Source of the DNA: Ectobius pallidus
Lineage: Eukaryota > Arthropoda > Insecta > Blattodea > Ectobiidae
Reading direction: 5' to 3'
DNA: 64,000 bases
NCBI GenBank assembly: GCA_964059195.1
Contig: CAXKWD010000005.1
Location: 92,765,882 to 92,829,881, forward strand
Shown here piece by piece: positions 12,451 to 58,380 of this stretch. A model generated the notes under the pieces. That model made no database searches and had not been told where the DNA came from. It saw only the letters and a program-made list of their open reading frames with translations. A program made the position numbers and the translations under genes. Each line of letters opens with the position of its first letter. Position 1 is the stretch's first letter.

Positions 12451-12562
12451 AGTAGTATGGTTTTATATGCTACCCCTTGGGTGGGGCCCGATACTGTCCC
12501 GCAACATTGGGTGGGGCAGGTCAAAGTCCATCTCGCAGCGTGTTGCAGGGGCAAAGTCCACA

Positions 12563-12612
12563 AATGACGTCATCCAAAATGGCGGCGCGCTAGACCGCGT
12601 GACCGGAAGTAG
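12563..12612. promoter_or_regulatory. CRE + YY1-like + ETS-like motif cluster in terminal arm
   Basis: TGACGTCA (12565-12572), AAATGGCGGC (12577-12586) and CCGGAAGT (12603-12610) lie within 46 bp, about 115 bp inside the outer end of A. They occur again in mirror image in A' near 40490-40535. The match is to vertebrate and insect consensus motifs by eye; promoter activity is inferred only. Confidence 0.5.
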
Positions 12613-12737
12613 GTTTCGTATTACAGCACGAAGCGTAAATGCATCGTCATCATTATATTCCGCCATACAAGTTTTCCGTAAGATGTTTATTTCACTATGG
12701 TCCTGGGATCGACTCAGCCTGGATACCTAAGGCTGCT

Positions 12738-12740
12738 AAC

Positions 12741-12776
<36 letters not shown>

Positions 12777-12791
12777 TATTATTATTATTAT
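12738..12791. repeat. (ATT)n microsatellite
   Basis: Long ATT runs also occur at 12966-12996, 14040-14102 and 14342-14370 in A, and mirrored as AAT runs in A'. Run lengths differ between the arms; the run mirrored at 40293-40355 is longer on the right. Each run occupies the same place in the recurring A-arm module. Confidence 0.9.
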
Positions 12792-12964
12792 CAGACGCGA
12801 TCGGGAGTGTAGAGAAGCGATATTTTAAACCTTCAAGTATTTTTTTTTTTTTAAACTATATTTTATCATACAATTTTGCCGTAAGATGTTTATTTCTCTA
12901 ATACATTCATTTTTTCACTATGGTCCTGGGATCGACTCAACCTGGATACCTAAGGCTGTTAACC

Positions 12965-12997
<33 letters not shown>

Positions 12998-14038
12998 TAC
13001 TTCTTTGATTACATATCGAAGTCTAAAAGATATTATGTTAGCACATATTTCAAACCTTTATTTATTTATTTATTTATTTTTTATAATTATGGTAGCTATC
13101 GTTTTAAAACTATATTTCGTCATAAGATGATAATTTTAGCCCTGGGGTTAACTCAGCCTCTAGCTTACCGACGAGTGTTGAATTAGCTTCAAACCCTCGG
13201 TATAATGAGGGAATAATATTATGTTGATAATTACGGCATTATAAAATTCGCGTACAGAAAGCCAGCATGTGATTTATACATGTGGAGTACAGAGATTTGC
13301 TAAGGTAATCGGAAGTCTCATCTCGCAAGATTTCTACTCACCTTGCAGTGGTCATATGCAGACGCAAGCGTTCTAGTATGTCTTATCTCGCACTCGTGTC
13401 ACCTACATTTCATCTCTTTAATTCTCCATTCATAACAGTGATATTTCATTTATCCATTTAATCTTTAAATCCTAGTTTATTAATCTACCTAGTGCTTTTA
13501 TTAATTTATTGCTTTGAAGCGGACTTGTACTATAATAGTCCTCACGGTTGCTCCTGGTGAAAATAGAAAAATGGTTTTCAATGCAAGGTTTTAGCGAGAG
13601 ATTTGAAATTCTAATACGTAATTCTTTAGAAAATGGCTTCTAGCGCGTAATTTAAAATTATGAACAAATGACATTGTGGTAGATTTGTAATATACTTTTA
13701 CGAGAGAGTTCATTTCACAATAGGTATCATATTACCAAAGTCAACAACCGTGTCGACAATCTGAACCTCCTTATTTATTATTATTATTATCATTATTATA
13801 TTACTTTTTTTCTTTCTTTCTTTCTTTTCTTTTTCTTTTTTTACACATCGAAGTCTAAAAGATACTAAGATAGCACATATTTCATTTCTTCAAGTATTTT
13901 TTTATAATTATATTTCACTGTACATTTTTTCCGTAAGATGTCTATTTATCTAAAAAATAGCCCTGAGGTCGACTCAGCCTCTAACAGAATCCTGGAGTAA
14001 AGGCGGCCGGTGCGTAGGGCTAACAACCTTAACGTACA

Positions 14039-14086
<48 letters not shown>

Positions 14087-15336
14087 CATCATCATTATTA
14101 TATTACTTTTTTTTTCTTTCTTTCTTTCTTTTCTTTTTCATTTTTTACACATTCAAGTCTAAAAGATATTAAGATAGCATATATTTAATCCTTTATGTTT
14201 TTTTATAATTATATTTAACCATACAATTTTATCCGTAAGATGTATATTTCTCTATTACATTAATTTTTTACTATGACCCTGGGATCAACTCAGCCTGGAG
14301 TAAATGCGGTCGGTATGTAAGGCTGTTAATCTTAACGTACATATTATTATTATTATTATCATTATTATATTACTTCTTTGTTTACATATCGAATTCTAAA
14401 AGATATTACGTTAGCACATATTTCAAAACTTTATTTATTTATTTATTTTTTATTTTTTTATTTTTTTGTATAATTATGGTAGTTATCGGCCAGTGCGTAA
14501 AACTCATGCTGAGGTCTTTAGAGGGAATATATTATGTTAATAATTACAGGTTTTTTTAATGCCGATACAGTAATATATGGCAAGCCAGTATCGAGTTTTA
14601 TATTCAAGTGTTATATCATCGCAGAACTGTGCTTAGCGTTGTCTCAAAGCAGAGAGAGTTTTGCTGATTAGGCTAGCATTTTTGCTGATGCAGTAATACT
14701 ATGTAGTGATGCTACGCTCAAGTGATACAACTTCATTCAGTCTCTTTAAATGTACACTCAATATGTCAAAACACTCCTTTCCCTGTAATACATTATTCAT
14801 TAGGCATTCTGTTTAATTTTCCAATCGTTACGCCTTATATGTGTTATATCAGTGATCTCATTCCTTTTGCTTTAATTATTATTAAAACCTAGTCATATGT
14901 GTAATTTTTATTCGATGCGTATTACCTATAACGATTTTTATATAATAAACCTATGTTTCATCTCTGAACGATATCACGTTACATGTTATACAACTTAATA
15001 AATACGTCATTATTCATAGGCGTTTTGTAAAGTCAGTTTTTTCTCAACGCAGAACCGTATCGCAACGTATGGAGATTTTACCGTCATAAACGGGAAGTTT
15101 GCTGACCTTCACATACAGGACGGGTGGTATTATTTAGATCAGTGATTTAACTTTTAATACAATGTTATGCTTTACCTGCTAATCTGAAGCGATGTATTTA
15201 CGAATTGATCCTATTTTTGTGTATAATAATATTACATTATTTTGCTTTTCAATTTGTTACATACCGATATATTTTAAATTATTCTTAGTAGTATATGACC
15301 ATTTTTGAATGGATGGAGGGGAAATGGGGTGGGGGT

Positions 15337-15625
15337 AATGACGTCATCAGTGGTGGGGATAATGACGTCATCACTTCCCCTCCAAGATGGCGGCACTTCC
15401 TGTTCCGGAACAAAATGGCGGCACTTCCTGTTCCGGAACAAAATGGCGGATCTTCCTGTTCCGGAACAATATGGCGGATCTTCCTGTTCCGGAACAAAAT
15501 GGCGGATCTTCCTGTTCCGGAACAAAATGGCGGATCTTCCTGTTCCGGAACAAAATGGCTGATCTTCCTGATCCGGAACAATATGGCGGATCTTCCTGTT
15601 CCGGAACAATATGGCGGCTAGCGCG
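15337..15625. promoter_or_regulatory. 28-bp motif array with flanking CRE sites (left)
   Basis: Two TGACGTCA palindromes (15339-15346, 15363-15370) precede eight 28-bp units, each containing TTCCTGTTCCGGAAC and ATGGCGG (TTCCGGAAC starts near 15403, 15431, 15459, 15487, 15515, 15543, 15571 and 15599). The first unit reads AAGATGGCGGC, a close match to the YY1 consensus, and CCGGAA is the ETS core. Because 28 is not a multiple of 3 and the unit lacks stops, several overlapping open frames on both strands run through it; they are not genes. The mirror array at 30905-31115 has seven units. Confidence 0.8.
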
Positions 15626-16082
15626 AAATTCAAAATTTTATAAATGCAAGAGTGTGCTAAGTCGAAATTAATGCAAAAGTGAGCTAAGTCGAAATTTTAT
15701 GGCGGGATATTTGAAAATTCAAAATTGTTATCAAGATGGCGACTAGCGCCGGCGGCTAGCGCGAAATTCAAAATTTTAAAAATGCAAGAATGTGCTAAGT
15801 CTTAATATTATTTTTACCAATTAGTTAAGCCCTTATGCCAAGGACGTCTGGATCCCCTCCCCCTCTTATGCAAGCCTTTTACCAATTAGTTACGCCCTTA
15901 TGCCATAGACGCCATGGACGCAATCTTACGTGAGGTTTTTTCTCGGGACGTTTGCAGTTGGGTCCTTTGGCTATCCCATATGAAGTCCCTACACTTTGAA
16001 CTTTTTTATCCCGCAAACGTTATGACCTTTTGACAGTTGTAGTCGCTATCCCAGGACCTCCATATGACGTCATCATTACGGT

Positions 16083-16262
16083 AGGCCAACTTTTTATGGA
16101 TGCAGCGCCAAAACTGTTAACCAACTCCCCTTACGAATACAGTGAGTACTTTTTAAATTCAGAATTTTGTGTACGGTAGGCCACCTTTTTATGGAAGCAG
16201 CGCCAAAACTGTTAAACAACTCCCATTACGAATACAACACCTACTTTTTAAATTCAGAATTT
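16083..16262 (+). repeat. Two-copy tandem duplication (~95 bp)
   Basis: ACGGTAGGCCAACTTTTTAT with GCAGCGCCAAAACTGTTAA and TTTTTAAATTCAGAATTT occurs twice in succession. It is mirrored in B' at about 30260-30440. A third TGACGTCA lies just before it (16075-16082). Confidence 0.75.
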
Positions 16263-16697
16263 AAAATATTGTCTTTAAATTAGATTTCAGGATAAAATGG
16301 CATTAAATAATACTAGACACCATTAGACCTAATTGAATATTTTAGCCTTTAGGATAGGAGCTGATGATGAAAGGCTGAAATAAAACTTACATTTTTCAGA
16401 AAAATAATTATTTATTTTCACACGAAATATTATGGTACCAGTATGGGAAGGTTCCCTTGCAGTTATATACAGAAAGAATTCTATTATAGATAACATCTAC
16501 GCAAACATCCTGGTCTAGTTTATTTTCATAACACCTCTAGCAATAACAATCAGCCGGACACAATATAAATAGTACATGAATATGTAGGTCATCTCACTTT
16601 CACCACATCCGTTAACATCCGTATTGAACTTGTGTTTAAGTCCGCATTGATGACACAGATCTTAAAACTATTCTAGAACATAACCAAATTAGCACAA

Positions 16698-16868
16698 GGA
16701 AATGATTGCAACACACACACAAACATCCTGGATGCTAATTGTAACTCCTCTACAGGACATGTTCCTCAGGCTATAAAGAGATGCGTTTTTGGCAAACGTT
16801 CTCACATACTGTGTATAATCGTAAGTGGCTGTATCTCTACAACTGATTGAAACTGTTAGTGCCGTCAT
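16698..16868 (-). CDS. Small open frame in B, unassigned (mirror of 29655-29834)
   Basis: About 59 codons starting from the ATG in CATGACGGCACTAACAG read on the minus strand. The product has YDYTQYVRTFAKNASLYSL and ends QDVCVCVAIISLC. It is identical in both B arms. I do not recognise a domain. A downstream AATAAA lies about 270 bp away. It may be a small gene, an exon or chance; coding status is unproven. Confidence 0.25.
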
Positions 16869-17162
16869 GTTATTCAACCTTGTGCTTTCATAATTGTCTA
16901 CTAGATCGCGCTAGTTAACAGTAATTACTTTCATAATTATCTACTAGATGCCAGTTGTATACCATGCTATAAGATGGCGACTACCGCTAAATTCAAAATT
17001 CAAAACATTGTATCATATAATATTCAGTTTTTTTCTCACTGCCGTCATGTTATTCAATCTTGTGCTTTCATAAATGTTTACTAGATCGCACTAGTTAACA
17101 GTCAATACTTTCAGATTTGTCTACTAGAAGGCAGTTGTGTACCATGCTATAAGAGGGCGACT
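16865..17162 (+). repeat. Two-copy ~170-bp duplication
   Basis: GCCGTCATGTTATTCAA with CTTGTGCTTTCATAA, CTACTAGATCGC and ATACCATGCTATAAGA occurs at about 16862 and again at about 17041. It overlaps the start of the small frame and is mirrored in B'. Confidence 0.75.
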
Positions 17163-17172
17163 CGCACTAAGC

Positions 17173-18052
17173 TATCCATATTCATCCCAACGGCTGTAAT
17201 TTGGCCATTTGGACCAACGAAACGTTATGGTTGTCATGGTAGTCGATTCGAACAATTGAGTTACGCCTTTTAACACTATACTATCCTCGATTCATACCGA
17301 TGGCTGTAATTAAGCCATTTGGACCAAGGAGAGGTTATGGACGTGATGGTAGTCGTTTCGAACAATTGAGTTACGCCCTTTAGCACTATGCTATCCCCGA
17401 TTCATCCCAAAGGCTTCAATTAGGCCATTTGGACCGACGAAACGTTATGAGCGTCATGGTAGTCGTTTCGAACAATTGAGTTACGCCTTTTAACACTATA
17501 CTATCCTCGATTCATACCGATGGCTGTAATTAAGCCATTTGGACCAAAGAGAGGTTTTGGACGTCATGGTAGTCGATTCGAACAAATGAGTTATGCCTTT
17601 TAACAATAAGCTATCCATATTCATCCCAAAGGGTGTAATTAGGCCATTTGGACCAAAGAGAGGTTTTGGACGTCATGGTAGTCGATTCGAACAAATGAGT
17701 TACGCCTTTTAACAATAAGCTATCCATATTCATCCCAACTTGTGTAATTAGGCCATTTGGACCAAAGAGAGGTTTTGGACGTCATGGTAGTCGATTCGAA
17801 CAAATGAGTTACGCCTTTTAACAATAAGCTATCCATATTCATCCCAACGGTTGTAATTAGGCCATTTGGACCGAGGAGACGTTATGGGCGTCATGGTAGT
17901 CGATTAGAACAATTGAGTTACGCCTTTTAACACTATGATATCCCCGATTCATCCCGACGCCTGTTGTTAGGCCGTTTGGACCAAGAGGTGTTTGTGGTAT
18001 CGTGGGAATCGTTTTCGAACCAAAAAGTTACACCTTTCATACTATGCTATCC
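17173..18052. repeat. 110-bp tandem array in B
   Basis: Eight units of 109-110 bp. GCCATTTGGACC starts at about 17204, 17314, 17424, 17534, 17643, 17752 and 17861, and a variant at 17971. Each unit has TCATGGTAGTCG, TTCGAACAA and GAGTTACGCCTTTTAACA. The mirror array is at about 28470-29350. Confidence 0.88.
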
Positions 18053-19050
18053 CTAAAGACCTAGATGTCCAGTAATAAAGGGGAATATAATTATCCAGGA
18101 GTTTAGGTATTCCTTATAGGAACAGAGGAAGGGTAATTCCGTCTTCATTAAAACTGGGAAATACCACCTTTGCAAAAGTATGTCATTGCTTTTTTAAATA
18201 AACAGAATAGACTTCTAATAATAATGAAAAGTTTTCTCCTCTACATTAACACCAAGGTTGAATTTATTTTCAACAACAACAAGCCCTAGGCTAAAGACAT
18301 AACAGTTACAGGTAAAGATCAGCATGCATTATGAAACTATATTTGGTAAACAAGATCTCAAATATAGACAACTTTCTCCTAAACAATATTACAGAGGTCA
18401 TCAAAATATGTTTATCTCTACACAACCCTAAGCTATGTGAATGTCAGTACTGAAAATGATAATAATAAAAAGTTACAGAATTACTTATACCATTTGCGAA
18501 AGCTGATTATGTTTTCCCACTGCATAGAAATTGAAAGATAAATAAGATTATACTTACATAACTTTTTTCTTCTATACAGCATCTTTTCTCCTTCCAGATG
18601 AACACTGTTAGTATTACTATCAACTAATTGAAACGACTGTGTAAGGATTAGGAAAACGGTTAAGGTTAATTTTCATATCAGAACGTCACAACTTTATTCT
18701 GTATCATAAGATTGTCACGTTCCCATGAAATAATCTGTATAAACAAAGGGCTTCACTGTAGTAGAACTGGATGATTTATTTCATAGGTAACGATGTCATA
18801 TAATGATAGATTTTCCCAACTTGTACGAACAACATCTTTGTTTATATAATTAAACACTTCCCCCTTGCAAGAGTACAAATTTACTCGTGATGTCATTTAT
18901 AATAGTAGTGGAATTCATAACGAGGTAAGTAATCTCCTCATTACGTAAAATAATGCGAGCACTATCGTATTGTATCACACATTCTTTCAAGTCCTTACAT
19001 GTCTGTAATTGAAAGAGTCTTCTCTAAACAGTAACATTGTTATATGCAAC
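18053..19050. other. 3' flank of the minus-strand gene in B
   Basis: AT-rich sequence that is non-coding as far as I can see. It contains a probable polyadenylation signal for the minus-strand transcript (TTTATT on the plus strand at 18693-18698, and another near 18777). Confidence 0.5.
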
Positions 19051-19549
19051 TTATTTAACTTCAGGTTTGTTTAAAAACACGTAATGAATATTGTCTACGA
19101 ACCATGACTTTAAACTTAAAACAATTTGTTGTGCACATTTTGCTTCAGGAAAAGTATGAAATTTACAGACAGTAATACATTTAGGTAGAATATTTAAATT
19201 AGGACAATTGAAATCAAACAGATCGTAGAACTCGACAGACGGAATAATGTTTTGTAGAAATTGTTTCTTCTGAAGACCTTTCACAAATACATGATCACAA
19301 TCAATGAAAACGTTTTTTACAATATTTTCCATTTGAACATAATCTACAAATCCAAGATCGTATTGTAATCCATGATGAAAATTTTCTAAGTAATGTTTTG
19401 TCACCTCATTTACAACAAGGTCTTCAGGACTGTTGAATAATATATGTACACTGTTTTCACCTTTCAAATCACAAGAAAAAAATTCTTTTACAAAAAATAC
19501 CGTTGATGCTGCATCGACATAACCCTGTACATCAGCAACGCGAGCATTC
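19051..19549 (-). CDS. Terminal exon of predicted 181-aa protein (left copy)
   Basis: Open from a splice acceptor (CTAG, then exon start at 19549) to the stop at 19051. Joined to the first 15 codons of the 107-aa gene (19955-20001) it gives a predicted 181-aa protein, with the junction codon AG|G in phase. Motifs by predicted residue: DVQGY 22-26, VKE 36-38, FVKG 104-107, NCPNL 130-134 and C144/H147/C154. This pattern matches, from memory, an uncharacterised protein family found widely in arthropod genomes and linked with repeats. A nuclease-like fold is a guess. The frame starting at 19467 uses TTG, not ATG, so it is an exon and not a complete gene. Residue 88 is Gln here and His in the right copy. 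Confidence 0.65.
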
Positions 19550-19677
19550 CTAGATCAAAAGAAAATAATATATTACTATCAAAATTCAGACGTTTACGCA
19601 AATATAAAATAAATAATGATGTGTTTCTTTGTCATTAAGATCTGTTCTTTCTTCCATTGTTGAACACTGTTTTTTTT

Positions 19678-20001
19678 TCATGAACCGTTAACCAGACTTA
19701 AATTGTATGCATTAGATCCGTCGAAATGTCCTTTATACACTAGCCCTAATTTGCATATGCCTGTGTTTATAGAATCAAAATCTTTCGCCTCAAACTGTTC
19801 AGAATACTTCTTTGGTAGAAAAACAGCCAGAAGTTCCTCCTTGTTAGACGTTTGTAATTCCAACAACACAGAGTCCCCATACTTAGTGTGTTTTAATTCA
19901 GCTGATAGAACATTATATGTTTGCCCTCTGACTAGTTGCGAAATGGAAACGCACCTTGCTCCGTAAGTGGTCTTGTTGAATTTTTCGATTATTGAAACCA
20001 T
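19678..20001 (-). CDS. 107-aa OB-like protein (left copy)
   Basis: ATG at 20001, directly after a splice acceptor on the minus strand; stop at 19678. The product has SQLVRGQTY (residues 21-29), HTKYGDSVLLEL (38-49) and FLPKKY (61-66). It is paralogous to the 161-aa protein by this pattern. The layout of short beta-rich segments suggests an OB-fold nucleic-acid-binding protein, but that is inference. A 5' leader exon is separated by an intron (20002-20203), and a TATA box lies at 20325-20332. The protein is identical in the right copy. Confidence 0.72.
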   Translation of the reverse strand: MVSIIEKFNKTTYGARCVSISQLVRGQTYNVLSAELKHTKYGDSVLLELQTSNKEELLAVFLPKKYSEQFEAKDFDSINTGICKLGLVYKGHFDGSNAYNLSLVNGS

Positions 20002-20203
20002 CTGAAAAGCATGAAATGAGTTTTTAGTATATAAATTATGTTATCATTAAACTGTAGCACGTGTTTATGTAAAAATGAACAATCGAAGGACCTACAAATA
20101 ATTAACAAAACTAGTAAAAAAAAATAGAATCTATTAGAAATAGGAAAACAAACAAGAAGTTAATTATATTTTTAAACAAACAAACAAACATGATGTCACT
20201 TAC
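20002..20203 (-). other. 5' leader intron (left copy)
   Basis: On the minus strand the donor is AGAG|GTAAGTGAC (intron starts at 20203) and the acceptor CTTTTCAG ends at 20002, directly before the ATG. The 202-bp intron lies in the 5' UTR. Confidence 0.7.
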
Positions 20204-20324
20204 CTCTATAGTTTGTAGGAGAAAAGACAATGATAGAAGAACAGATGTAGATGCTGACGTCAACTATGTAGTCTTCACTATTCACAGAACGATGAAACAA
20301 TGTTTCAAGACGGAACTGTCAGAC

Positions 20325-20332
20325 CTTTTATA
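20325..20332 (-). promoter_or_regulatory. TATA box of the minus-strand transcript (left)
   Basis: TATAAAAG on the minus strand, about 120 bp upstream of the donor of the leader intron. It is mirrored at 26190-26197. Confidence 0.65.
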
Positions 20333-20343
20333 CGGATATTAAG

Positions 20344-20662
20344 TAACGGGTTTCCCCTTCCTCATTTGAACTTATACAAGTTTCTTGTTTGAAATAGAAT
20401 TAGATGCCGGAACCGGATTTCTTACAAGGATGTACTTTCAAAAACTTGTTATGACACGTTTCTACATTTAGAATTATATACCTGAACAGGATCTCGTGTG
20501 ACTACTGTTATGTTAAGTAATGGGTTTTCCCTTTATGAACTTTCTTGTTGGAAACAGAATTAGATGCCGGAACTGGATTTCTTACAAGGATGTACTTTCA
20601 AAACTTGTTATGACACGTTTCTACATTTAGAATTATATACACAAACAGGATCTCGTGTGACT
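20344..20662. promoter_or_regulatory. 159-bp tandem duplication in the divergent promoter (left)
   Basis: Two copies of a block with CACACGAGATCCTGTT, GTATATAATTCTAAATGTAG, ACGTGTCATAACAAG and AGTTCCGGCATCTAATTCT (minus-strand reading). They lie between the minus-strand 107-aa gene and the plus-strand 161-aa gene. The duplication is mirrored at 25861-26180. Confidence 0.78.
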
Positions 20663-20817
20663 AAGAGTTTGTTTACCGACCTAATTACTTCAAACTTGTG
20701 ATATGTTCGTAAGACCATAACAGGATGTTTGTGAGACGTGACCATGTTTAACAACCTGCTTACACAGGACTATTGCGAGACAAGCGTCATATCCTCAGTG
20801 ATCGTCAAGCCTGCAAG

Positions 20818-21303
20818 ATGTCATCATTGAAACACAGACATAAAAGTGCATCTAATTCTACTACAACTGCTACTGCTACAATAGATATTACAACACAGGA
20901 CTTGTGGGATACACTGCAGACCTCTACCATACAGACGTCAAAAGAGGAATTACCAAATACACAGCTTCAATCGGATGAAATCAAGAATAAGAACACGTCT
21001 ATACTATCCATTCTAAAGCGTTATTCAACTGTGTACGTCCCCCTTGTGAGATGTAACAAGTCGTTGAGCAAATTGCAAATTGGACTTGCGTATCCAATAA
21101 AGGAAGCTCGTTCCGTGTATAGAAGGTATGGAAGAAGAGTCGTTCTAGATGTAATTATAGGGTGCAGCGTTTATCTACCACGAAGGTTTGGGAAGTTGAG
21201 TGAAGATCAGCTGCAACAGATGAACGAGAAACTTTCATTGATGTACATCAGTAGGGAGCCGAATTCACCTGGTTACTGCTACTACGTTTTCAGCTTTATG
21301 TAA
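20818..21303 (+). CDS. 161-aa protein, paralogue of the 107-aa protein (left copy)
   Basis: The first ATG of the frame is at 20818; the longer frame from 20773 begins with TTG. An Inr-like CTCAGTG sits about 25 bp upstream. Residues 1-75 are Ser/Thr/Gln/Lys-rich and look disordered. The C-terminal part has LSKLQIGLAYPIKEA (83-97), YRRYGRRVVLDV (101-112) and YLPRRF (119-124), matching the 107-aa protein position by position (Y-x4-A, (K/R)YG, V-x-L-(D/E), LP(K/R)(K/R)). A probable polyadenylation signal AATAAA is at 21470-21475. The role is unknown; nucleic-acid binding is inferred from the shared fold-like pattern and basic character. The right copy is identical. Confidence 0.72.
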   Translation: MSSLKHRHKSASNSTTTATATIDITTQDLWDTLQTSTIQTSKEELPNTQLQSDEIKNKNTSILSILKRYSTVYVPLVRCNKSLSKLQIGLAYPIKEARSVYRRYGRRVVLDVIIGCSVYLPRRFGKLSEDQLQQMNEKLSLMYISREPNSPGYCYYVFSFM

Positions 21304-21469
21304 CATGGAATCGATGTTTCACGTAGAACATTGGGAAACGTCTTGAGATTTTAGACTCAGTGTAAAGTGTGTGTGTGTGTGTGTGTAACAGACTAAAAGT
21401 GACTATACAACACGTCAACAGGCACCCTACGTCCATCGACTTAAAATGAAATTCATTTTGTAAATATTC

Positions 21470-21475
21470 AATAAA
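21470..21475 (+). terminator. Polyadenylation signal of the 161-aa gene (left)
   Basis: AATAAA 167 bp after the stop; mirrored as TTTATT at 25045-25050. A (GT)n run at 21367-21386 lies between stop and signal and differs in length from its mirror. Confidence 0.6.
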
Positions 21476-21717
21476 AACAAAGTGATAAATTATTTCATAA
21501 GTAGATTTTCTCAAAAATGATATACGTTTTGACAAAGTCCAGTTTTCCCTAACATCTCCTATTCCTAATTCCTAGGATGAGGGGCTGTGAAATAAAAACA
21601 CATTTCAGAATTTTAGATTTTATTTACTTTATTACAATCATACTGGGGTTTCATCCACAGCGTAAACACATTAACATTTAGCAATGCACAGTTCATATTA
21701 GAGTCATTATGAAAAAG

Positions 21718-21910
21718 ACATACAATTTTTCCTATATTATATCACAAGTTTGATGGCTAAAATAATATGATTATTGTTTTTTCTTTCAAGTTCTCATCAT
21801 TACTAGAACTCGACATGTTCATCATTCCAGTCTATGTTATATAAGCACTTGATACAAATTACATTTTTACTAGATCTTTATCGTAATTTACAGAACACGT
21901 AACCGTCTAT
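21718..21910 (+). repeat. B segment paralogous to C
   Basis: Shares blocks in order and in the same orientation with 32968-33155: ATCACAAG, GTTCTCATCATTACT, TATAAGCACTTGA, ACATTTTTAC, AGATCTTTATC and TAATTTACAGAACAC. Divergence is moderate, far greater than between mirror arms. Confidence 0.8.
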
Positions 21911-22035
21911 ACCGTTTGTAATAATAGTTAATGGTAATATTGTTTTAAATTCAAAATCTTTACAACTGTTAATCTGCACTTTAATAACTTGTGATTAAAA
22001 AACTGTATAAAGTATTTAAATGTAGAAATTATTAT

Positions 22036-25044: not shown

Positions 25045-25050
25045 TTTATT
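25045..25050 (-). terminator. Polyadenylation signal of the 161-aa gene (right)
   Basis: AATAAA on the minus strand; mirror of 21470-21475. Confidence 0.6.
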
Positions 25051-25218
25051 GAATATTTACAAAATGAATTTCATTTTAAGTCGATGGACGTAGGGTGCCT
25101 GTTGACGTGTTGTATAGTCACTTTTAGTCTGTTACACACACACACACACACACACTTTACACTGAGTCTAAAATCTCAAGACGTTTCCCAATGTTCTACG
25201 TGAAACATCGATTCCATG

Positions 25219-26180: not shown

Positions 26181-26189
26181 TAATATCCG

Positions 26190-29350: not shown

Positions 29351-29654
29351 GCTTAGTGCGAGTCGCCCTCTTATAGCATGGTACACAACTGCCTTCTAGT
29401 AGACAAATCTGAAAGTATTGACTGTTAACTAGTGCGATCTAGTAAACATTTATGAAAGCACAAGATTGAATAACATGACGGCAGTGAGAAAAAAACTGAA
29501 TATTATATGATACAATGTTTTGAATTTTGAATTTAGCGGTAGTCGCCATCTTATAGCATGGTATACAACTGGCATCTAGTAGATAATTATGAAAGTAATT
29601 ACTGTTAACTAGCGCGATCTAGTAGACAATTATGAAAGCACAAGGTTGAATAAC

Positions 29655-29834
29655 ATGACGGCACTAACAGTTTCAATCAGTTGTAGAGATACAGCCACTT
29701 ACGATTATACACAGTATGTGAGAACGTTTGCCAAAAACGCATCTCTTTATAGCCTGAGGAACATGTCCTGTAGAGGAGTTACAATTAGCATCCAGGATGT
29801 TTGTGTGTGTGTTGCAATCATTTCCTTGTGCTAA
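29655..29834 (+). CDS. Small open frame in B', unassigned
   Basis: 59 codons from ATG (29655) to TAA, identical to its mirror. No recognised domain; the C-terminus is hydrophobic and Cys/Val-rich. An AATAAA lies near 30104. It may be a short exon, because both flanks contain splice-like sites, but this is weak. Confidence 0.25.
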   Translation: MTALTVSISCRDTATYDYTQYVRTFAKNASLYSLRNMSCRGVTISIQDVCVCVAIISLC

Positions 29835-30904
29835 TTTGGTTATGTTCTAGAATAGTTTTAAGATCTGTGTCATCAATGCGGACTTAAACACAAGTTCAAT
29901 ACGGATGTTAACGGATGTGGTGAAAGTGAGATGACCTACATATTCATGTACTATTTATATTGTGTCCGGCTGATTGTTATTGCTAGAGGTGTTATGAAAA
30001 TAAACTAGACCAGGATGTTTGCGTAGATGTTATCTATAATAGAATTCTTTCTGTATATAACTGCAAGGGAACCTTCCCATACTGGTACCATAATATTTCG
30101 TGTGAAAATAAATAATTATTTTTCTGAAAAATGTAAGTTTTATTTCAGCCTTTCATCATCAGCTCCTATCCTAAAGGCTAAAATATTCAATTAGGTCTAA
30201 TGGTGTCTAGTATTATTTAATGCCATTTTATCCTGAAATCTAATTTAAAGACAATATTTTAAATTCTGAATTTAAAAAGTAGGTGTTGTATTCGAAATGG
30301 GAGTTGTTTAACAGTTTTGGCGCTGCTTCCATAAAAAGGTGGCCTACCGTACACAAAATTCTGAATTTAAAAAGTACTCACTGTATTCGTAAGGGGAGTT
30401 GGTTAACAGTTTTGGCGCTGCATCCATAAAAAGTTGGCCTACCGTAATGATGACGTCATATGGAGGTCCTGGGATAGCGACTACAACTATCAAAAGGTCA
30501 TAACGTTTGCGGGATAAAAAAGTTCAAAGTGTAGGGACTTCATATGGGATAGCCAAAGGACCCAACTGCAAACGTCCTGAGAAAAAACCTCACGTAAGAT
30601 TGCGTCCATGGCGTCTATGGCATAAGGGCGTAACTAATTGGTAAAAGGCTTGCATAAGAGGGGGAGGGGATCCAGACGTCCTTGGCATAAGGGCTTAACT
30701 AATTGGTAAAAATAATATTAAGACTTAGCACATTCTTGCATTTTTAAAATTTTGAATTTCGCGCTAGCCGCCGGCGCTAGTCGCCATCTTGATAACAATT
30801 TTGAATTTTCAAATATCCCGCCATAAAATTTCGACTTAGCTCACTTTTGCATTAATTTCGACTTAGCACACTCTTGCATTTATAAAATTTTGAATTTCGC
30901 GCTA

Positions 30905-31165
30905 GCCGCCATATTGTTCCGGAACAGGAAGATCCGCCATATTGTTCCGGATCAGGAAGATCAGCCATTTTGTTCCGGAACAGGAAGATCCGCCATTTTG
31001 TTCCGGAACAGGAAGATCCGCCATTTTGTTCCGGAACAGGAAGATCCGCCATATTGTTCCGGAACAGGAAGATCCGCCATTTTGTTCCGGAACAGGAAGT
31101 GCCGCCATCTTGGAGGGGAAGTGATGACGTCATTACCCCCACCACTGATGACGTCATTACCCCCA
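30905..31165. promoter_or_regulatory. 28-bp motif array with flanking CRE sites (right)
   Basis: Mirror of 15337-15625 with seven instead of eight 28-bp units, followed by two TGACGTCA sites. It lies at the base of the B' stem, next to the three-way junction. Confidence 0.8.
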
Positions 31166-31208
31166 CCCTATTTCCCCTCCATCCATTCAAAAATGGTCAT
31201 ATACTACT

Positions 31209-31559
31209 ATTCTTGAAGCGATTTCTTCCTATTTCTATGATTACCTATGATTTTACCTATTTTCTATGAATACCTATGATTTCTATGTATAATGTAATAA
31301 AACATTGTTTCATCTCCGTTCGATCTCACTTTCTTTTTATTTTCTTTTTATTTTTATTTTCTTATTTTTTATAATCATATTCCACATACAATTTTATCCA
31401 TAAGATGTCTATTTCTCTAAAACATTAATTTTTCACTATAGCTTTGGGGGGACGACTTAGCCTCAGTTTGCTGGCTAGCGTATAATTTGAAACAATAATT
31501 TTCACTTTGGTCCTAGGGTAAAGGCAGCCATTGCGTAAGGCTGGTAACCTTATCATACC

Positions 31560-31605
<46 letters not shown>

Positions 31606-33575
31606 CATCACCATATTTCTTCTTTGTTCACACATCGAATTCTAAAAGATGTAGCAATAGCCATTATACATTTTTATAATTATGACAGCGGTCGATTTTT
31701 ATCTGCTGACATAAGCCAACACATAAGATATCTATTTCCCTATATCATCTTTTTTCTGAGATGGACTCGGCCTCAGTCGTTGTATAAAATGTTAATCTCC
31801 TTGCACTACTGTCTCAAACCCTTGGACTGTATACGCAAAACATCGTAATAAATGCATCTTCATTCATAGACGTTTTGTAAAATATATTAAAAACTTGTAT
31901 TAAGTTTTATACTCATACGTTATAAACAGCGAAGATTTCTGCTAGCCTTGTGTCATTGCATAGAGAGTTTACCGAATAAGCTAACCTTAACAGATAGCAT
32001 TTTTGCTGATGTAAGATTACGATAGCAAGTATTTTTATCGATTGCACAGGTGATACTTATGCATTCAGTCTCTTTAAATCTTCATTCGTTATGTTACCTC
32101 ATCTCTCCCTTTAAATCCTCTTCTCAGTCATTATGTCTTAATCTTTCTGTATTACCTAATGCTTTTATTGATTTATTGTTTCATTTTCCGCTTTGAATAA
32201 CCTGATACGCTGACATCTATTTCATTCATAATTATGTACTATGAATTCTCATCGCTGAGGGGAGAGTAAGTGGAAGGTAGTCTACCATTACATTTCTCAA
32301 TACCAAGAGCGCATGCGCAGTCATTCGTCTACCTAGCAGGTCAGCTCTCTAAACTACAAGTTATGCGTTTTTTTCAATTGTGTAATCAGACGTATCCTCA
32401 ATCAAAAGGTTAATTTTAAAATGTCTTTATTCATATGCTTTTTGTGTATGATTTATTAATCTTTATGTATAATATTATGCTGACCACATGACCACCACAC
32501 AATCTACCATCTGCCTATGGTAGATGATGCAGCGGTCGAGTGGTAGGTCAAATCCCTTCAGAGATGTAGCGCCACAGAGTTTTGGAGTTTAGCTGCTTAA
32601 ATATACACTACCTATTTTTTATGCACGATGCTTTCATTCTCCGTTCTGGAACGGACTTGGTCAAAATGTTTACTTTATACATCTAATTTTTAAAAAAATC
32701 ACGTAACAGTCCTATTACAAATAGTAGAAACTCAAAATAGCTGGAGGTTCAAGTTTTCAAAACTTACAATTTTTTAGATATTTAAACTTTGAATTAAAAT
32801 TATGTTTTTTATTTCACAAGATCAGCATTAATTTTTACTATGAACCACAACGGGGGCGCGGGTCCTAACAACATCATGTTTGAATTAGTTTCTTAGCTCT
32901 CCACCATTTTATTCATGTTATCATACCATCTAGCTAATTAACATCACGCTACGGGGTTATTACCAAGTTAACATACATTTTTACTATAATTCATCACAAG
33001 CTTGGCGGTTAAAGATAATATGCCTAAGTTCTCATCATTACTTAAAATACATTTGATCTCAACCAGTCTTAGACCCATATTTTATAAGCACTTGACACAA
33101 GTAACATTTTTACGAGATCTTTATCATAATTTACAGAACACCTAAACATCTCCATTTTGCTTCAAAGTGATGTTCTTTACGCATTTCTTTTATAATGTGG
33201 TACCATCTCCTTAGTATGCAAATTGTCATAGTTTGCTCCATCATGTTTGAATTAGTTTTCTTAGCTTTCCACCATTCAGTTAATAGAGGACTATGTGATG
33301 GAAATATTTAAGTAGGATTATTCCATTCTTGTCACTGAATAGAGAGGGTCTCGATGTCTTACACTATAAGTTGAGTTGTGAATGATGGATGAACGTTCGC
33401 AATCACTCTGAAACTGCATTCTACATACAAGTGTCGTAATCTTAGTAGTCTTGCTAACATTAACCTGTTGCTCTTTACCTATGATTCAGCAAGTAATATG
33501 TGTAAGATATGATTAAAATGATCTTTTTGTTAGACATCCTGAGAGTTGATGTATAGTAAATATACAACTCCACTC
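31209..33575 (+). repeat. Arm C (third stem, left)
   Basis: Mirror of 35408-37786. The outer part (31370-32250) is a diverged copy of the A-arm module: CATACAATTTTATCC, AAGATGTCTATTTCTCTA, (ATT)n, GAATTCTAAAAGATGTAG, CATTCAGTCTCTTTAAAT and AATGCTTTTATTGATTTATT. The inner part (32968-33155) is a diverged copy of inner B. The frame at 31531-31848 begins with a poly-Tyr run encoded by (ATT)n and is not a gene. Confidence 0.88.
32968..33155 (+). repeat. C segment paralogous to B
   Basis: Partner of 21718-21910, lying near the loop end of the stem just as in B. Confidence 0.8.
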
Positions 33576-34482
33576 CTAGAAGACCAAGACCAAGACCGAG
33601 AAACAAGACCAAGACCAAGACCAAGACCAAGACCAAGACCAAGACCAAGACCAAGACCAAGACCAAGACCAAGACCAAGACCAAGACCAAGACCGAGAAA
33701 CAAGACCAAGACCAAGACCAAGACCGAGAAACAAGACCGAGAAACAAGACCAAGACCAAGACCAAGACCAAGACCGAGAAACAAGACCAAGACCAAGACC
33801 AAGACCAAGACCAAGACCAAGACCGAGAAACAAGACCAAGACCGAGAAACAAGACCAAGACCGAGAAACAAGACCAAGACCAAGAAACAAGACCAAGACC
33901 GAGAAACAAGACCAAGACCGAGAAACAAGACCAAGACCAAGACCAAGACCAAGACCAAAACCAAGACCAAGACCAAGACCGAGAAACAAGACCAAGACCA
34001 AGACCGAGAAACAAGACCAAGACCAAGACCAAGACCAAGACCAAGACCGAGAAACAAGACCAAGACCAAGACCGAGACCAAGACCAAGACCAAGACCGAG
34101 ACCAAGACCAAGACCAAGACCAAGAAACAAGACCAAAACCGAGAAACAAGACCAAGACCGAGAAACAAGACCAAGACCGAGAAACAAGACCAAGACCGAG
34201 AAACAAGACCAAGACCGAGAAACAAGACCAAGACCGAGAAACAAGACCAAGAACGAGAAACAAGACCAAGACCGAGAAACAAGACCAAGACCGAGAAACA
34301 AGACCAAGAACGAGAAACAAGACCAAGACCGAGATACAAGACCAAGACCGAGAAACAAGACCAAGACCGAGAAACAAGACCAAGAACGAGAAACAAGACC
34401 AAGACCGAGAAACAAGACCAAGACCGAGAAACAAGACCAAGACTGAGAAACAAGACCAAGACCGAGAAACAAGACCACAGCC
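33576..34482 (+). repeat. GACCAA / GAGAAACAA hexamer array (long)
   Basis: About 900 bp of GACCAA units mixed with GACCGAGAAACAA units. All frames are open on both strands because of the period, giving frames of 300-343 aa of Arg-Pro-Lys-Thr or Gly-Leu-Val-Ser type. The mirror array at 35090-35407 is only about a third as long. Confidence 0.92.
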
Positions 34483-35089
34483 TTCAAATTTAAGATTCCA
34501 TTTCAAAAATTCATATTTCTGAACGTTTAGTCACACTATAAAACATTTTCTACATAAAGTCACTATAATTATCGAAGTTTTTACATAAACTAACTATAAA
34601 TATAGAAATTCGTCGGAGTCCATCAAACTCTTACGTTTTCCCACAATCTTTTCATCTTTTATATGTTTAAGTACGTGCTCTACGGTTTTACATAAATTCA
34701 TTATAAGTATCAAATTTTCGACATAACTTAGTGAAAATAACGAAGTTTGCTCGTAAAATGACTATAAATATCGACTTTTATACATAGAAAGTTGAAAAAT
34801 TACACAATCAAATACACACATATCACATACACTTCATTTCTAGGAGAGTAGACCTACATTTCACACTCATAAATGATACTTCATTTTAAACTAGGAATTG
34901 ATAGAAATTAAGAAAAATATGTAAGTAGGGTTATTCCATTCTTGACACTGAATAGAGAGGGTCTCGACTACAGCATCGCATTGAATGTCCTATTGTTGTA
35001 TGGGTGGTATCTAGTTAGAACTAGTCTTAACTGACTTTTTTCTAGTTAGAACTAGTCTTAACTGAGTTTTTTCTAGTTAGAACTAGAAC
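34483..35089. other. Unique centre of the C hairpin loop
   Basis: AT-rich. It includes a diverged direct copy (34915-34972) of 33305-33355 (AAGTAG, TTATTCCATTCTTG, CACTGAATAGAGAGGGTCTC) and 2-3 tandem copies of TCTAGTTAGAACTAGTCTTA at 35008-35090. Motifs of the form CTATAAATATxGAA recur several times at 34550-34770. No gene. Confidence 0.6.
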
Positions 35090-35407
35090 TCGGTCTTGGT
35101 CTTGTTTCTCGGTCTTGGTCTTGTTTCTCGGTCTTGGTCTTGTTTCTCGGTCTTGGTCTTGGTCTTGGTCTTGGTCTTGGTCTTGTTTCTCGGTCTTGGT
35201 CTTGGTCTTGGTCTTGGTCTTGTTTCTCGGTCTTGTTTCTCGGTCTTGTTTCTCGGTCTTGGTCTTGGTCTTGGTCTTGGTCTTGGTCTTGTTTCTCGGT
35301 CTTGGTCTTGGTCTTGGTCTTGGTCTTGGTCTTGGTCTTGGTCTTGGTCTTGGTCTTGGTCTTGGTCTTGGTCTTGGTCTTGTTTCTCGGTCTTGGTCTT
35401 GGTCTTC
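35090..35407 (-). repeat. GACCAA hexamer array (short, inverted)
   Basis: The same repeat in opposite orientation (GGTCTT units), about 320 bp. The length asymmetry shows independent expansion or contraction since the arms were copied. Confidence 0.92.
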
Positions 35408-37380
35408 TAGGAGTGGAGTTGTATATTTACTATACAGCAACTCTCAGGATGTCTAACAAAAAGATCATTTTAATCATATCTTACACATATTACTTGCTGA
35501 ATCATAGGTAAAGAGCAACAGGTTAATGTTAGCAAGACTACTAAGATTACGACACTTGTATGTAGAATGCAGTTTCAGAGTGATTGCGAACGTTCATCCA
35601 TCATTCACAACTCAACTTATAGTGTAAGACATCGAGACCCTCTCTATTCAGTGACAAGAATGGAATAATCCTACTTAAATATTTCCATCACATAGTCCTC
35701 TATTAACTGAATGGTGGAAAGCTAAGAAAACTAATTCAAACATGATGGAGCAAACTATGACAATTTGCATACTAAGGAGATGGTACCACATTATAAAAGA
35801 AATGCGTAAAGAACATCACTTTGAAGCAAAATGGAGATGTTTAGGTGTTCTGTAAATTATGATAAAGATCTCGTAAAAATGTTACTTGTGTCAAGTGCTT
35901 ATAAAATATGGGTCTAAGACTGGTTGAGATCAAATGTATTTTAAGTAATGATGAGAACTTAGGCATATTATCTTTAACCGCCAAGCTTGTGATGAATTAT
36001 AGTAAAAATGTATGTTAACTTGGTAATAACCCCGTAGCGTGATGTTAATTAGCTAGATGGTATGATAACATGAATAAAATGGTGGAGAGCTAAGAAACTA
36101 ATTCAAACATGATGTTGTTAGGACCCGCGCCCCCGTTGTGGTTCATAGTAAAAATTAATGCTGATCTTGTGAAATAAAAAACATAATTTTAATTCAAAGT
36201 TTAAATATCTAAAAAATTGTAAGTTTTGAAAACTTGAACCTCCAGCTATTTTGAGTTTCTACTATTTGTAATAGGACTGTTACGTGATTTTTTTAAAAAT
36301 TAGATGTATAAAGTAAACATTTTGACCAAGTCCGTTCCAGAACGGAGAATGAAAGCATCGTGCATAAAAAATAGGTAGTGTATATTTAAGCAGCTAAACT
36401 CCAAAACTCTGTGGCGCTACATCTCTGAAGGGATTTGACCTACCACTCGACCGCTGCATCATCTACCATAGGCAGATGGTAGATTGTGTGGTGGTCATGT
36501 GGTCAGCATAATATTATACATAAAGATTAATAAATCATACACAAAAAGCATATGAATAAAGAAATTTTAAAATTAACCTTTTGATTGAGGATACGTCTGA
36601 TTACACAATTGAAAAAAACGCATAACTTGTAGTTTAGAGAGCTGACCTGCTAGGTAGACGAATGACTGCGCATGCGCTCTTGGTATTGAGAAATGTAATG
36701 GTAGACTACCTTCCACTTACTCTCCCCTCAGCGATGAGAATTCATAGTACATAATTATGAATGAAATAGATGTCAGCGTATCAGGTTATTCAAAGCGGAA
36801 AATGAAACAATAAATCAATAAAAGCATTAGGTAATACAGAAAGATTAAGACATAATGACTGAGAAGAGGATTTAAAGGGAGAGATGAGGTAACATAACGA
36901 ATGAAGATTTAAAGAGACTGAATGCATAAGTATCACCTGTGCAATCGATAAAAATACTTGCTATCGTAATCTTACATCAGCAAAAATGCTATCTGTTAAG
37001 GTTAGCTTATTCGGTAAACTCTCTATGCAATGACACAAGGCTAGCAGAAATCTTCGCTGTTTATAACGTATGAGTATAAAACTTAATACAAGTTTTTAAT
37101 ATATTTTACAAAACGTCTATGAATGAAGATGCATTTATTACGATGTTTTGCGTATACAGTCCAAGGGTTTGAGACAGTAGTGCAAGGAGATTAACATTTT
37201 ATACAACGACTGAGGCCGAGTCCATCTCAGAAAAAAGATGATATAGGGAAATAGATATCTTATGTGTTGGCTTATGTCAGCAGATAAAAATCGACCGCTG
37301 TCATAATTATAAAAATGTATAATGGCTATTGCTACATCTTTTAGAATTCGATGTGTGAACAAAGAAGAAATATGGTGATG

Positions 37381-37435
<55 letters not shown>

Positions 37436-37786
37436 GGTATGATAAGGTTACCAGCCTTACGCAATGGCTGCCTTTACCCTAGGACCAAAGTGAAAATTAT
37501 TGTTTCAAATTATACGCTAGCCAGCAAACTGAGGCTAAGTCGTCCCCCCAAAGCTATAGTGAAAAATTAATGTTTTAGAGAAATAGACATCTTATGGATA
37601 AAATTGTATGTGGAATATAATTATAAAAAATAAGAAAATAAAAATAAAAATAAAATAAAAAGAAAGTGAGATCGAACGGAGATGAAACAATGTTTTATTA
37701 CATTATACATAGAAATCATAGGTATTCATAGAAAATAGGTAAAATCATAGGTAATCATAGAAATAGGAAGAAATCGCTTCAAGAAT
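35408..37786 (-). repeat. Arm C' (third stem, right)
   Basis: Mirror of C with a small drift in coordinate sum. The (AAT)n run near 37380-37434 is longer than its mirror. The frame 37138-37464 repeats the poly-Tyr artefact. Confidence 0.88.
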
Positions 37787-38980
37787 AATTTAAAATATAT
37801 CGGTATGTAACAAATTGAAAAGCAAAATAATGTAATATTATTATACACAAAAATAGGATTAATTCGTAAATACATCGCTTCAGATTAGCAGGTAAAGCAT
37901 AACATTGTATTAAAAGTTAAATCACTGATCTAAATAATACCACCCGTCCTGTATGTGAAGGTCAGCAAACTTCCCGTTTATGACGGTAAAATCTCCATAC
38001 GTTGCGATACGGTTCTGCGTTGAGAAAAAACTGACTTTACAAAACGCCTATGAATAATGACGTATTTATTAAGTTGTATAACATGTAACGTGATATCGTT
38101 CAGAGATGAAACATAGGTTTATTATATAAAAATCGTTATAGGTAATACGCATCGAATAAAAATTACACATATGACTAGGTTTTAATAATAATTAAAGCAA
38201 AAGGAATGAGATCACTGATATAACACATATAAGGCGTAACGATTGGAAAATTAAACAGAATGCCTAATGAATAATGTATTACAGGGAAAGGAGTGTTTTG
38301 ACATATTGAGTGTACATTTAAAGAGACTGAATGAAGTTGTATCACTTGAGCGTAGCATCACTACATAGTATTACTGCATCAGCAAAAATGCTAGCCTAAT
38401 CAGCAAAACTCTCTCTGCTTTGAGACAACGCTAAGCACAGTTCTGCGATGATATAACACTTGAATATAAAACTCGATACTGGCTTGCCATATATTACTGT
38501 ATCGGCATTAAAAAAACCTGTAATTATTAACATAATATATTCCCTCTAAAGACCTCAGCATGAGTTTTACGCACTGGCCGATAACTACCATAATTATACA
38601 AAAAAATAAAAAAATAAAAAATAAATAAATAAATAAAGTTTTGAAATATGTGCTAACGTAATATCTTTTAGAATTCGATATGTAAACAAAGAAGTAATAT
38701 AATAATGATAATAATAATAATAATATGTACGTTAAGATTAACAGCCTTACATACCGACCGCATTTACTCCAGGCTGAGTTGATCCCAGGGTCATAGTAAA
38801 AAATTAATGTAATAGAGAAATATACATCTTACGGATAAAATTGTATGGTTAAATATAATTATAAAAAAACATAAAGGATTAAATATATGCTATCTTAATA
38901 TCTTTTAGACTTGAATGTGTAAAAAATGAAAAAGAAAAGAAAGAAAGAAAGAAAAAAAAAGTAATATAATAATGATGATG

Positions 38981-39040
<60 letters not shown>

Positions 39041-40081
39041 TGTACGTTAAGGTTGTTAGCCCTACGCACCGGCCGCCTTTACTCCAGGATTCTGTTAGAG
39101 GCTGAGTCGACCTCAGGGCTATTTTTTAGATAAATAGACATCTTACGGAAAAAATGTACAGTGAAATATAATTATAAAAAAATACTTGAAGAAATGAAAT
39201 ATGTGCTATCTTAGTATCTTTTAGACTTCGATGTGTAAAAAAAGAAAAAGAAAAGAAAGAAAGAAAGAAAAAAAGTAATATAATAATGATAATAATAATA
39301 ATAAATAAGGAGGTTCAGATTGTCGACACGGTTGTTGACTTTGGTAATATGATACCTATTGTGAAATGAACTCTCTCGTAAAAGTATATTACAAATCTAC
39401 CACAATGTCATTTGTTCATAATTTTAAATTACGCGCTAGAAGCCATTTTCTAAAGAATTACGTATTAGAATTTCAAATCTCTCGCTAAAACCTTGCATTG
39501 AAAACCATTTTTCTATTTTCACCAGGAGCAACCGTGAGGACTATTATAGTACAAGTCCGCTTCAAAGCAATAAATTAATAAAAGCACTAGGTAGATTAAT
39601 AAACTAGGATTTAAAGATTAAATGGATAAATGAAATATCACTGTTATGAATGGAGAATTAAAGAGATGAAATGTAGGTGACACGAGTGCGAGATAAGACA
39701 TACTAGAACGCTTGCGTCTGCATATGACCACTGCAAGGTGAGTAGAAATCTTGCGAGATGAGACTTCCGATTACCTTAGCAAATCTCTGTACTCCACATG
39801 TATAAATCACATGCTGGCTTTCTGTACGCGAATTTTATAATGCCGTAATTATCAACATAATATTATTCCCTCATTATACCGAGGGTTTGAAGCTAATTCA
39901 ACACTCGTCGGTAAGCTAGAGGCTGAGTTAACCCCAGGGCTAAAATTATCATCTTATGACGAAATATAGTTTTAAAACGATAGCTACCATAATTATAAAA
40001 AATAAATAAATAAATAAATAAAGGTTTGAAATATGTGCTAACATAATATCTTTTAGACTTCGATATGTAATCAAAGAAGTA

Positions 40082-40117
<36 letters not shown>

Positions 40118-40304
40118 GGTTAACAGCCTTAGGTATCCAGGTTGAGTCGATCCCAGGACCATAGTGAAAAAATGAATGTATTAGAGAAATAAACATCTTA
40201 CGGCAAAATTGTATGATAAAATATAGTTAAAAAAAAAAAAATACTTGAAGGTTTAAAATATCGCTTCTCTACACTCCCGATCGCGTCTGATAATAATAAT
40301 AATA

Positions 40305-40358
<54 letters not shown>

Positions 40359-40648
40359 GTTAGCAGCCTTAGGTATCCAGGCTGAGTCGATCCCAGGACC
40401 ATAGTGAAATAAACATCTTACGGAAAACTTGTATGGCGGAATATAATGATGACGATGCATTTACGCTTCGTGCTGTAATACGAAACCTACTTCCGGTCAC
40501 GCGGTCTAGCGCGCCGCCATTTTGGATGACGTCATTTGTGGACTTTGCCCCTGCAACACGCTGCGAGATGGACTTTGACCTGCCCCACCCAATGTTGCGG
40601 GACAGTATCGGGCCCCACCCAAGGGGTAGCATATAAAACCATACTACT
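37781..40648 (-). repeat. Arm A' (outer stem, right)
   Basis: Mirror of A, ending CCATACTACT at 40639-40648, directly followed by flank repeat F'. It contains the same motif cluster and (AAT)n runs; one run is about 10-15 bp longer than on the left. Confidence 0.88.
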
Positions 40649-58338: not shown

Positions 58339-58380
58339 TAAAATTTTTCAAGCTGATTAGCACCTTAATGTTCAAGGTTG

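Follow-up and report, generated by a model that had tools for sequence, protein, structure and literature searches.

In vertebrates, intact Maverick (Polinton) elements range from 12.7 to 24.6 kb, carry terminal repeats of 46-1447 bp, end most commonly with the motif 5'-(AGT)2//(ACT)2-3' and are flanked by target-site duplications (TSD) of 6 bp (PMC8097293). We recognized no description of palindromic Mavericks in the open-licence literature, and other literature may hold one; the string "palindrom" is absent from the main text of PMC8097293, PMC6431247 and PMC11071308. Here we analyze a stretch of 64,000 nucleotides of the cockroach Ectobius pallidus (GenBank assembly GCA_964059195.1, contig CAXKWD010000005.1, positions 92,765,882 to 92,829,881), referred to below as the window. 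It contains two Maverick/Polinton-like elements, one inserted into the other, each a palindrome over nearly its whole length. The locus and its relatives were studied on the assembled sequence of E. pallidus, and the searches covered 2.12 Gb of its own genome.

The inverted repeats of the window were first considered. Self-comparison by BLAST gave three of them, all with E = 0.0: A (12443-15286) with A' (37781-40654) at 98.7% identity, B (15411-22037) with B' (24481-31112) at 99.75%, and C (31208-33903) with C' (35089-37787) at 98.6%. They lie in the order A-B-B'-C-C'-A', as the initial annotation of the window had described, and are confirmed as real, far beyond chance. Junction reading shows that the locus consists of two separate Maverick/Polinton-like insertions, of which the B element entered the left arm of the outer one later. 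The inner element B-loop-B' (15287..31208; 15,922 bp) has the termini AGTAGTATATGACC...GGTCATATACTACT and a perfect 6-bp TSD, ATTCTT, present on its left (15281..15286, +) and on its right (31209..31214, +). In the left arm, A ends with AAATT ATTCTT, the inner element runs from AGTAGTATATGACC through B, loop and B' to GGTCATATACTACT, and ATTCTT GAAGCG starts C. The right arm is intact and reads TTTTAAATTATTCTTGAAGCG unbroken: between C' and A' the letters are CGCTTC AAGAAT AATTT, without insertion, so that the unoccupied target site is found there as a single ATTCTT on the minus strand (37781..37786, -). Since a perfect duplication surrounds B and the opposite arm keeps the site unoccupied, A and C together form one arm, split by B, and the locus is T-shaped because one palindromic element sits inside the arm of another.

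The outer element, which holds the inner one and has palindromic relatives, extends over 28,198 bp (12451..40648), limits that the initial annotation had placed exactly to the base. The left TSD CATAGA (12445..12450, +) is followed by AGTAGTATGG and A; at the other end A' finishes with CCATACTACT, followed by the right TSD CATGGA (40649..40654, +), which has one mismatch to the left copy. Without the inner insertion the element measures about 12,270 bp. Alignment of the outer halves of its arms, A (12451..15286, +) on the left and A' (37787..40648, -) on the right, gave 1 mismatch and 35 gap columns per 2869 columns. The inner halves, C (31215..33903, +) on the left and C' (35089..37780, -) on the right, gave 4 mismatches and 25 gap columns per 2372 columns, excluding the AAGACC array (33580-34477) in which C ends. 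Between them lies an asymmetric centre (33904..35088). In the inner element, the arms B (15287..22037, +) and B' (24481..31208, -) differ by 14 mismatches and 36 gap columns per 6762 columns, and 8 of the 14 mismatches cluster within the final 0.4 kb before the centre, which is made of 8.4 copies of a 280-bp tandem repeat (22046..24391, +).

Both elements thus start with AGTAGT, end with ACTACT and are bounded by 6-bp TSD (ATTCTT, perfect, for the inner one; CATAGA/CATGGA for the outer one). Conserved ends of the (AGT)2//(ACT)2 type are common to the window elements and their palindromic relatives. The size of the B element (15.9 kb) falls within the range of vertebrate Mavericks, and the outer element (12.3 kb) is slightly under it. 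The terminal repeats are not short: they span nearly the whole element. To characterize the coding content of the window elements we compared to Pfam 119 of their 142 listed open reading frames (ORFs) of at least 40 aa, taken from one arm and the centre of each element; low-complexity frames were left out, and 6 of the 29 ORFs of the B centre were included. Nothing convincing was found in this set, which matched three weak families (best E 0.0034).

The distribution of related elements was then analyzed in the whole genome. A search with the outer terminus, in which the best 40 of 940 candidates were scored so that all counts are lower bounds, identified 21 loci. Thirty-eight of the 40 matches pair into 19 inverted pairs, and 2 are single. 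All 19 paired loci are whole palindromes, namely the window, nine relatives that were read and nine that were probed at one inner place. Among the relatives read, six (C6, C12b, C9, C1, C3 and C12a) have arms of 5.1-7.9 kb with 99.09-99.98% identity. The arms of C125 and C354 are interrupted by other sequence (98.1% identity over the outer 3.6 kb and 99.6% over the outer 3.1 kb, respectively), and C13 is more decayed (96.9%). The nine other pairs, probed 3.0-3.6 kb inside their ends, are inverted in 9/9 cases and 100% identical over 570-600 bp. The TSD is perfect in all eight palindromic relatives in which both end motifs are intact, in C13, where the last base is changed, and at C355, C4:158.2, C12:46.2 and C12:31.9. 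Altogether, 6-bp duplications bound the 15 palindromes for which both ends were read: 14 are perfect, and that of the outer element of the window has its one mismatch. C354 has an insert other than B in its left arm, about 2.75 kb long and flanked by inverted repeats of 451 bp (99.1%); it lies about 4.4-7.1 kb from the start of stretch L023 and contains a 414-aa frame. This is another kind of nested insertion, so T-like layouts can arise from other nestings.

A second search used an ORF of 183 aa (stop to stop) of the inner element, located in the B arm (20752..21303, +) and intact in both arms; its mirror copy in B' (25219..25770, -) encodes a 100% identical protein. The best 150 of 837 candidates, both window copies counted, were scored as related matches. 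C355, the closest relative of B that was found, is a palindrome with arms 99.6% identical and the TSD GCTGTG; what it has in common with B, among the ten best matches per piece, is the central repeat and 3.6 kb of the arm on its inner side (18497-22055), and not the termini. By eye, we counted among the 150 matches seven inverted pairs separated by less than 25 kb. Five of them, besides the window and C355, were examined with an inner probe: four are inverted and 99.499-100% identical, and C4:156.4 is not. Three of these four have perfect 6-bp duplications, and the ends of the fourth (C13:0.14) lie beyond the sequence read. Elements of this kind therefore occur as whole-length palindromes in this genome, in the outer family and in other terminal families. 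Most of the 150 matches are outside inverted pairs. One single match, C2, belongs to an ordinary element of 14.4 kb with terminal repeats of 1.93 kb and the TSD GACATA, which carries a fragment of a polymerase-like gene, a phospholipase-A2-like ORF (L042:2827-3558, +; PF08398, E 2.7e-9) and a BIR (inhibitor-of-apoptosis) ORF (L042:5319-5681, -; E 1.5e-21). PF08398 is a family known from parvovirus coat proteins. As the first 25 bases of the C2 terminus show 0 and 1 differences to the palindromes C12:46.2 and C4:158.2, respectively, ordinary elements seem to have given rise to palindromes on more than one occasion.

We next examined the symmetry axis. The arms of C6, C12b, C9, C12a and C3 extend almost to it. 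Tandem arrays adjoin the axis (in C6, C12b, C9 and C12a a 30-bp tandem, a CAAGAC array and others), and its neighbourhood also holds degenerate TTAGG-type repeats and an imperfect hairpin. The tip of this hairpin, a 42-nt sequence (CATTGAT..core..ATCAATG), occurs in eight of the nine relatives read: four have it without difference, three with one difference and C13 with four. In six (C6, C12b, C9, C12a, C3 and C354) it stands at a two-sided axis. DNA folding of two full tip regions gave one hairpin each (z -7.6 and -11.9), and a third, partial stretch gave z -1.7. Small asymmetries beside the tip are common to the four copies aligned, all in the same phase, which speaks for inheritance as a palindrome. 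A flip/flop of the tip against the arms was rejected. The tip is seen both ways, but the asymmetries next to it keep in phase with it and a palindrome can be oriented in no other manner, so the two directions simply reflect the orientation of insertion. Neither the ordinary C2 copy nor, with up to 6 substitutions allowed, the centre of the outer element of the window yielded the tip. That centre (33904-35088) resembles, by eye, sequence from the inner part of C13, which fits the expectation for an asymmetric deletion at the centre of a palindrome. Both window copies are probably non-autonomous, and the outer one has probably also lost its axial tip. Separately, TTAGG is an arthropod-type telomere unit, and its degenerate repeats flank the axial hairpin at L009:7619-7690 and its mirror, as well as at the centres of C12b, C9, C12a and C3, with the G-rich strand towards the axis.

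Four of the palindromes (C6, C12b, C9 and C12a) contain in each arm an intact ORF of 1182 aa (1193 aa in one C9 arm), and their left arms also encode a C2H2 zinc-finger ORF. In the left arm of C6, the ORFs of at least 110 aa are the zinc-finger ORF, the long ORF and one antisense frame. The long protein has, in order, HNMSNYDAH (from about 516), DANNLYG (768), NNAVFGK (915) and DTDS (1012), which we take to be the exonuclease, A, B and C motifs of a family B DNA polymerase. N-terminal to these motifs is an endonuclease-VII-like stretch with DHCH (484), matched in Pfam (E 1.7e-4) and in PHROG (E 2.4e-5). Among the best of 3236 candidates in the genome, at least 39 full-length frames of this polymerase-like protein, none with a stop, are distributed over 20 loci: 17 with one inverted pair, 1 with three copies including an inverted pair and 2 with a single copy. 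The distance from the far edge of one gene to that of the other is 9.22-9.84 kb at 16 of the 17 one-pair loci, which places the fold point at almost the same position in these, and 17.6 kb at the remaining one. Two loci (C7:60.07-60.09 Mb and C8:87.70-87.72 Mb) that show either this odd spacing or three copies of the gene are possibly further nested insertions. The ratio of nonsynonymous to synonymous substitution rates (dN/dS) is 0.14-0.16 between lineages and 0.31, on few changes, within the C9/C12a lineage. The between-lineage values indicate that the gene is under purifying selection; selection has preserved the protein while the elements moved repeatedly.

The homogeneity of the arms was measured on an alignment of the first 7.3 kb of each arm of C6, C12b, C9 and C12a. 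Within these copies the two arms differ at 9, 15, 4 and 29 sites, respectively, and the lineages differ by 4.5-5.1%. In all four between-lineage comparisons, 341, 306, 341 and 306 sites unite the arms of one copy and none unites arms across copies. For C9 and C12a, 10 sites unite arms within a copy and none across.

These observations lead us to propose, with a probability of about 0.7, that Maverick derivatives have turned into whole-length palindromes whose replication is protein-primed and passes through an intermediate folded as a hairpin; the anatomy is observed directly, and the route is our interpretation of it. An ancestral Maverick with short terminal repeats would have lost one end, and fold-back (snap-back) synthesis would have made a mirror-image duplicate of the other. 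The resulting palindrome would then be maintained since both its ends are the same protein-primed origin. In adenovirus, the single strands displaced during protein-primed replication can pair through their terminal repeats. In an ordinary Maverick, pairing of the displaced strand would be limited to the short repeats; here the strand displaced at each round would fold over its full length into a hairpin that turns at the conserved tip. Copying or repair of this hairpin would keep the arms alike and regenerate the duplex palindrome, and the duplex alone, having two AGTAGT ends, would be the form insertable by an integrase supplied in trans. The endonuclease-VII-like stretch could process the cruciform or the hairpin. 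Self-pairing of the whole displaced strand would explain the homogeneity of the arms (by mismatch repair or re-copying), the tip at the turn, the two identical origins and the persistence of asymmetries near the tip. The initial annotation had suggested, among other possibilities, a giant hairpin-replicating mobile element or a product of repeated fold-back replication: a multi-copy palindromic mobile family does exist (19/19 loci), and a hairpin or fold-back route best explains its symmetry, but the structure in the window is not one unit.

Several results weigh against this proposal. C6 and C12b, which are very little diverged, share 8 sites across copies and 1 within, so the arms are not fully re-copied at every round. 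One arm of C12a carries a mosaic tract of 27 differences in about 0.74 kb, which also disagrees with simple re-copying at every round; the tract (at L026, about 3.2-3.9 kb from the element end, in an arm nearer overall to the C6 lineage) shows exchange with another lineage, not copied to the partner arm. The 1.9-kb terminal repeats of the ordinary relative are themselves 99.95% identical, so ends are homogenized in elements other than palindromes too. Within 700 bp of the tip, no mirrored arm was found in C13 or C125. No extrachromosomal form of the elements was seen, though no search was aimed at one. Concerning the proteins, we named the gene polymerase-like from motifs read by eye, because Pfam reported no DNA polymerase family for the ORF of about 1182 aa, and NCBIfam and the PDB nothing useful. 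The endonuclease-VII match is below the cut-off of Pfam, and insertions of homing endonuclease domains have been reported for the polymerases of polintons (PMC11071308), so this stretch may lack a role in hairpin processing. No polymerase, integrase, capsid, ATPase or protease was recognized by Pfam among the 119 ORFs of the window elements, and no integrase, ATPase, capsid or protease, mostly by eye, among the ORFs of at least 110 aa in the listed pieces of the relatives. For want of an integrase we class these elements as Maverick-like derivatives and not as Mavericks proper.

The main rival explanation is that these elements are of an ordinary kind, have very long terminal inverted repeats and owe the equality of their arms to gene conversion by the host after insertion, without any hairpin stage. 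Such arm-to-arm conversion could likewise homogenize the arms, is familiar from large chromosomal palindromes and would agree with the near-identical ends of the ordinary relative and with the sequence exchange seen in C12a. We nevertheless consider it rather unlikely, because it does not readily account for the full identity of 9/9 loci at 3.0-3.6 kb inside the ends, the nearly equal spans of 16 of the 17 one-pair loci, the conserved tip hairpin with its asymmetries in constant phase, or the complete lack of cross-copy sites between lineages about 5% apart. A bolder version of hairpin replication is possible, and we hold it only tentatively: the elements may be a distinct replicon, a linear monomer with a protein-primed open AGTAGT end and a covalently closed hairpin end formed by the 42-nt tip, which would replicate round the hairpin to a palindromic dimer. 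The endonuclease-VII-like domain of the element's polymerase would carry out the resolution, and the dimer, which alone has two integrable ends, would be the sole form able to enter chromosomes.

The two remaining explanations concern the locus itself and its assembly. A single T-shaped replicon A-B-B'-C-C'-A' moving as a unit would give the repeat order of the window, and the initial annotation had compared it to a parvoviral terminal hairpin; with a perfect 6-bp TSD around B, and termini of B and of the outer element that diverge beyond AGTAGTAT, we give this almost no credit, and the empty site in the uninterrupted opposite arm rules it out. B is also not among the matches listed for the nine relatives read (at most the 8 best per piece). 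Fold-back chimeric reads are a recognized error of long-read sequencing, and the initial annotation had raised misassembly as a concern. That false palindromes were made in this way is very improbable: 6-bp duplications bound 15/15 palindromes with both ends read, some arms bear private differences, and a chimera would have mirrored the flanks as well. On the assembled sequence alone, the TSD and the unrelated flanks at many loci answer this concern, and misassembly was rejected.

Compared with Mavericks/Polintons, the palindromes share the end motif, the 6-bp TSD, a similar size and a polymerase-like gene among the relatives, and the related ordinary copy has both a fragment of this gene and the phospholipase-A2-like ORF. 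They differ by the length of their arms, about 5-7.9 kb in six of the relatives read, against 46-1447 bp for the repeats of vertebrate elements (PMC8097293), by two inverted copies of the polymerase-like gene, by the hairpin kept at the axis, and by an integrase and a capsid gene that were not recognized. In the foldback elements FB, Galileo and Tm1 the inverted repeats are likewise very long and contain many tandem arrays. FB and Galileo differ in their ends and TSD length, and the repeats are linked here to a polymerase-like gene and not to a transposase of P or Mutator type; the 6-bp TSD with AGTAGT ends argues against membership in the Foldback/Galileo group. The closest precedent that we found for the proposed mechanism is a deletion derivative of the kalilo linear mitochondrial plasmid of Neurospora, which, going by the title of a paper, reportedly forms hairpin and duplex structures. 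Like the element proposed here it is a protein-primed linear replicon; it differs in being a deletion form of a mitochondrial plasmid. Parvovirus terminal hairpins and poxvirus concatemer junctions resemble the axis by an imperfect hairpin at the turn and by a palindromic dimer junction. The palindromes differ from both by their Maverick ends at the other end and their integration with a 6-bp TSD, and no initiator or poxvirus-type gene was recognized in them.

Other ORFs of the inner element include one of 120 aa (19678..20040, -; mirror 26482-26844), a paralogue of the 183-aa ORF (BLASTP E 2e-5, single comparison), and one of 167 aa (19051..19554, -; mirror 26969-27472) without a family match above the curated cut-off. 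A PHROG search of the B ORFs gave nothing useful, nor did PDB sequence searches with window and polymerase-like ORFs; scans of viral contigs with two B ORFs and the polymerase-like ORF found no relatives. Single-sequence AlphaFold models of two B ORFs were too poor for a fold search (mean predicted local distance difference test 39.7 and 28.6). Outside the elements, the window contains a tandem array of 30 copies of a 63-bp unit (4925-6835), a broken reverse transcriptase of LINE (long interspersed nuclear element) type (53002-54794, -; RVT_1, E 3.8e-15, one piece) and a tRNA-Asn gene (58267-58339, +).

Long near-perfect palindromes are normally unstable in genomes. The mobile family described here has many of them, some with intact selected genes, and with clean target duplications. 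If the hairpin route is true, the protein-primed replication of Mavericks, adenoviruses and linear plasmids and the hairpin-ended replication of parvoviruses and poxviruses would be joined in one element, and these insertions would provide natural material for studying how palindromes originate, how their arms stay homogeneous and how their centres are lost.

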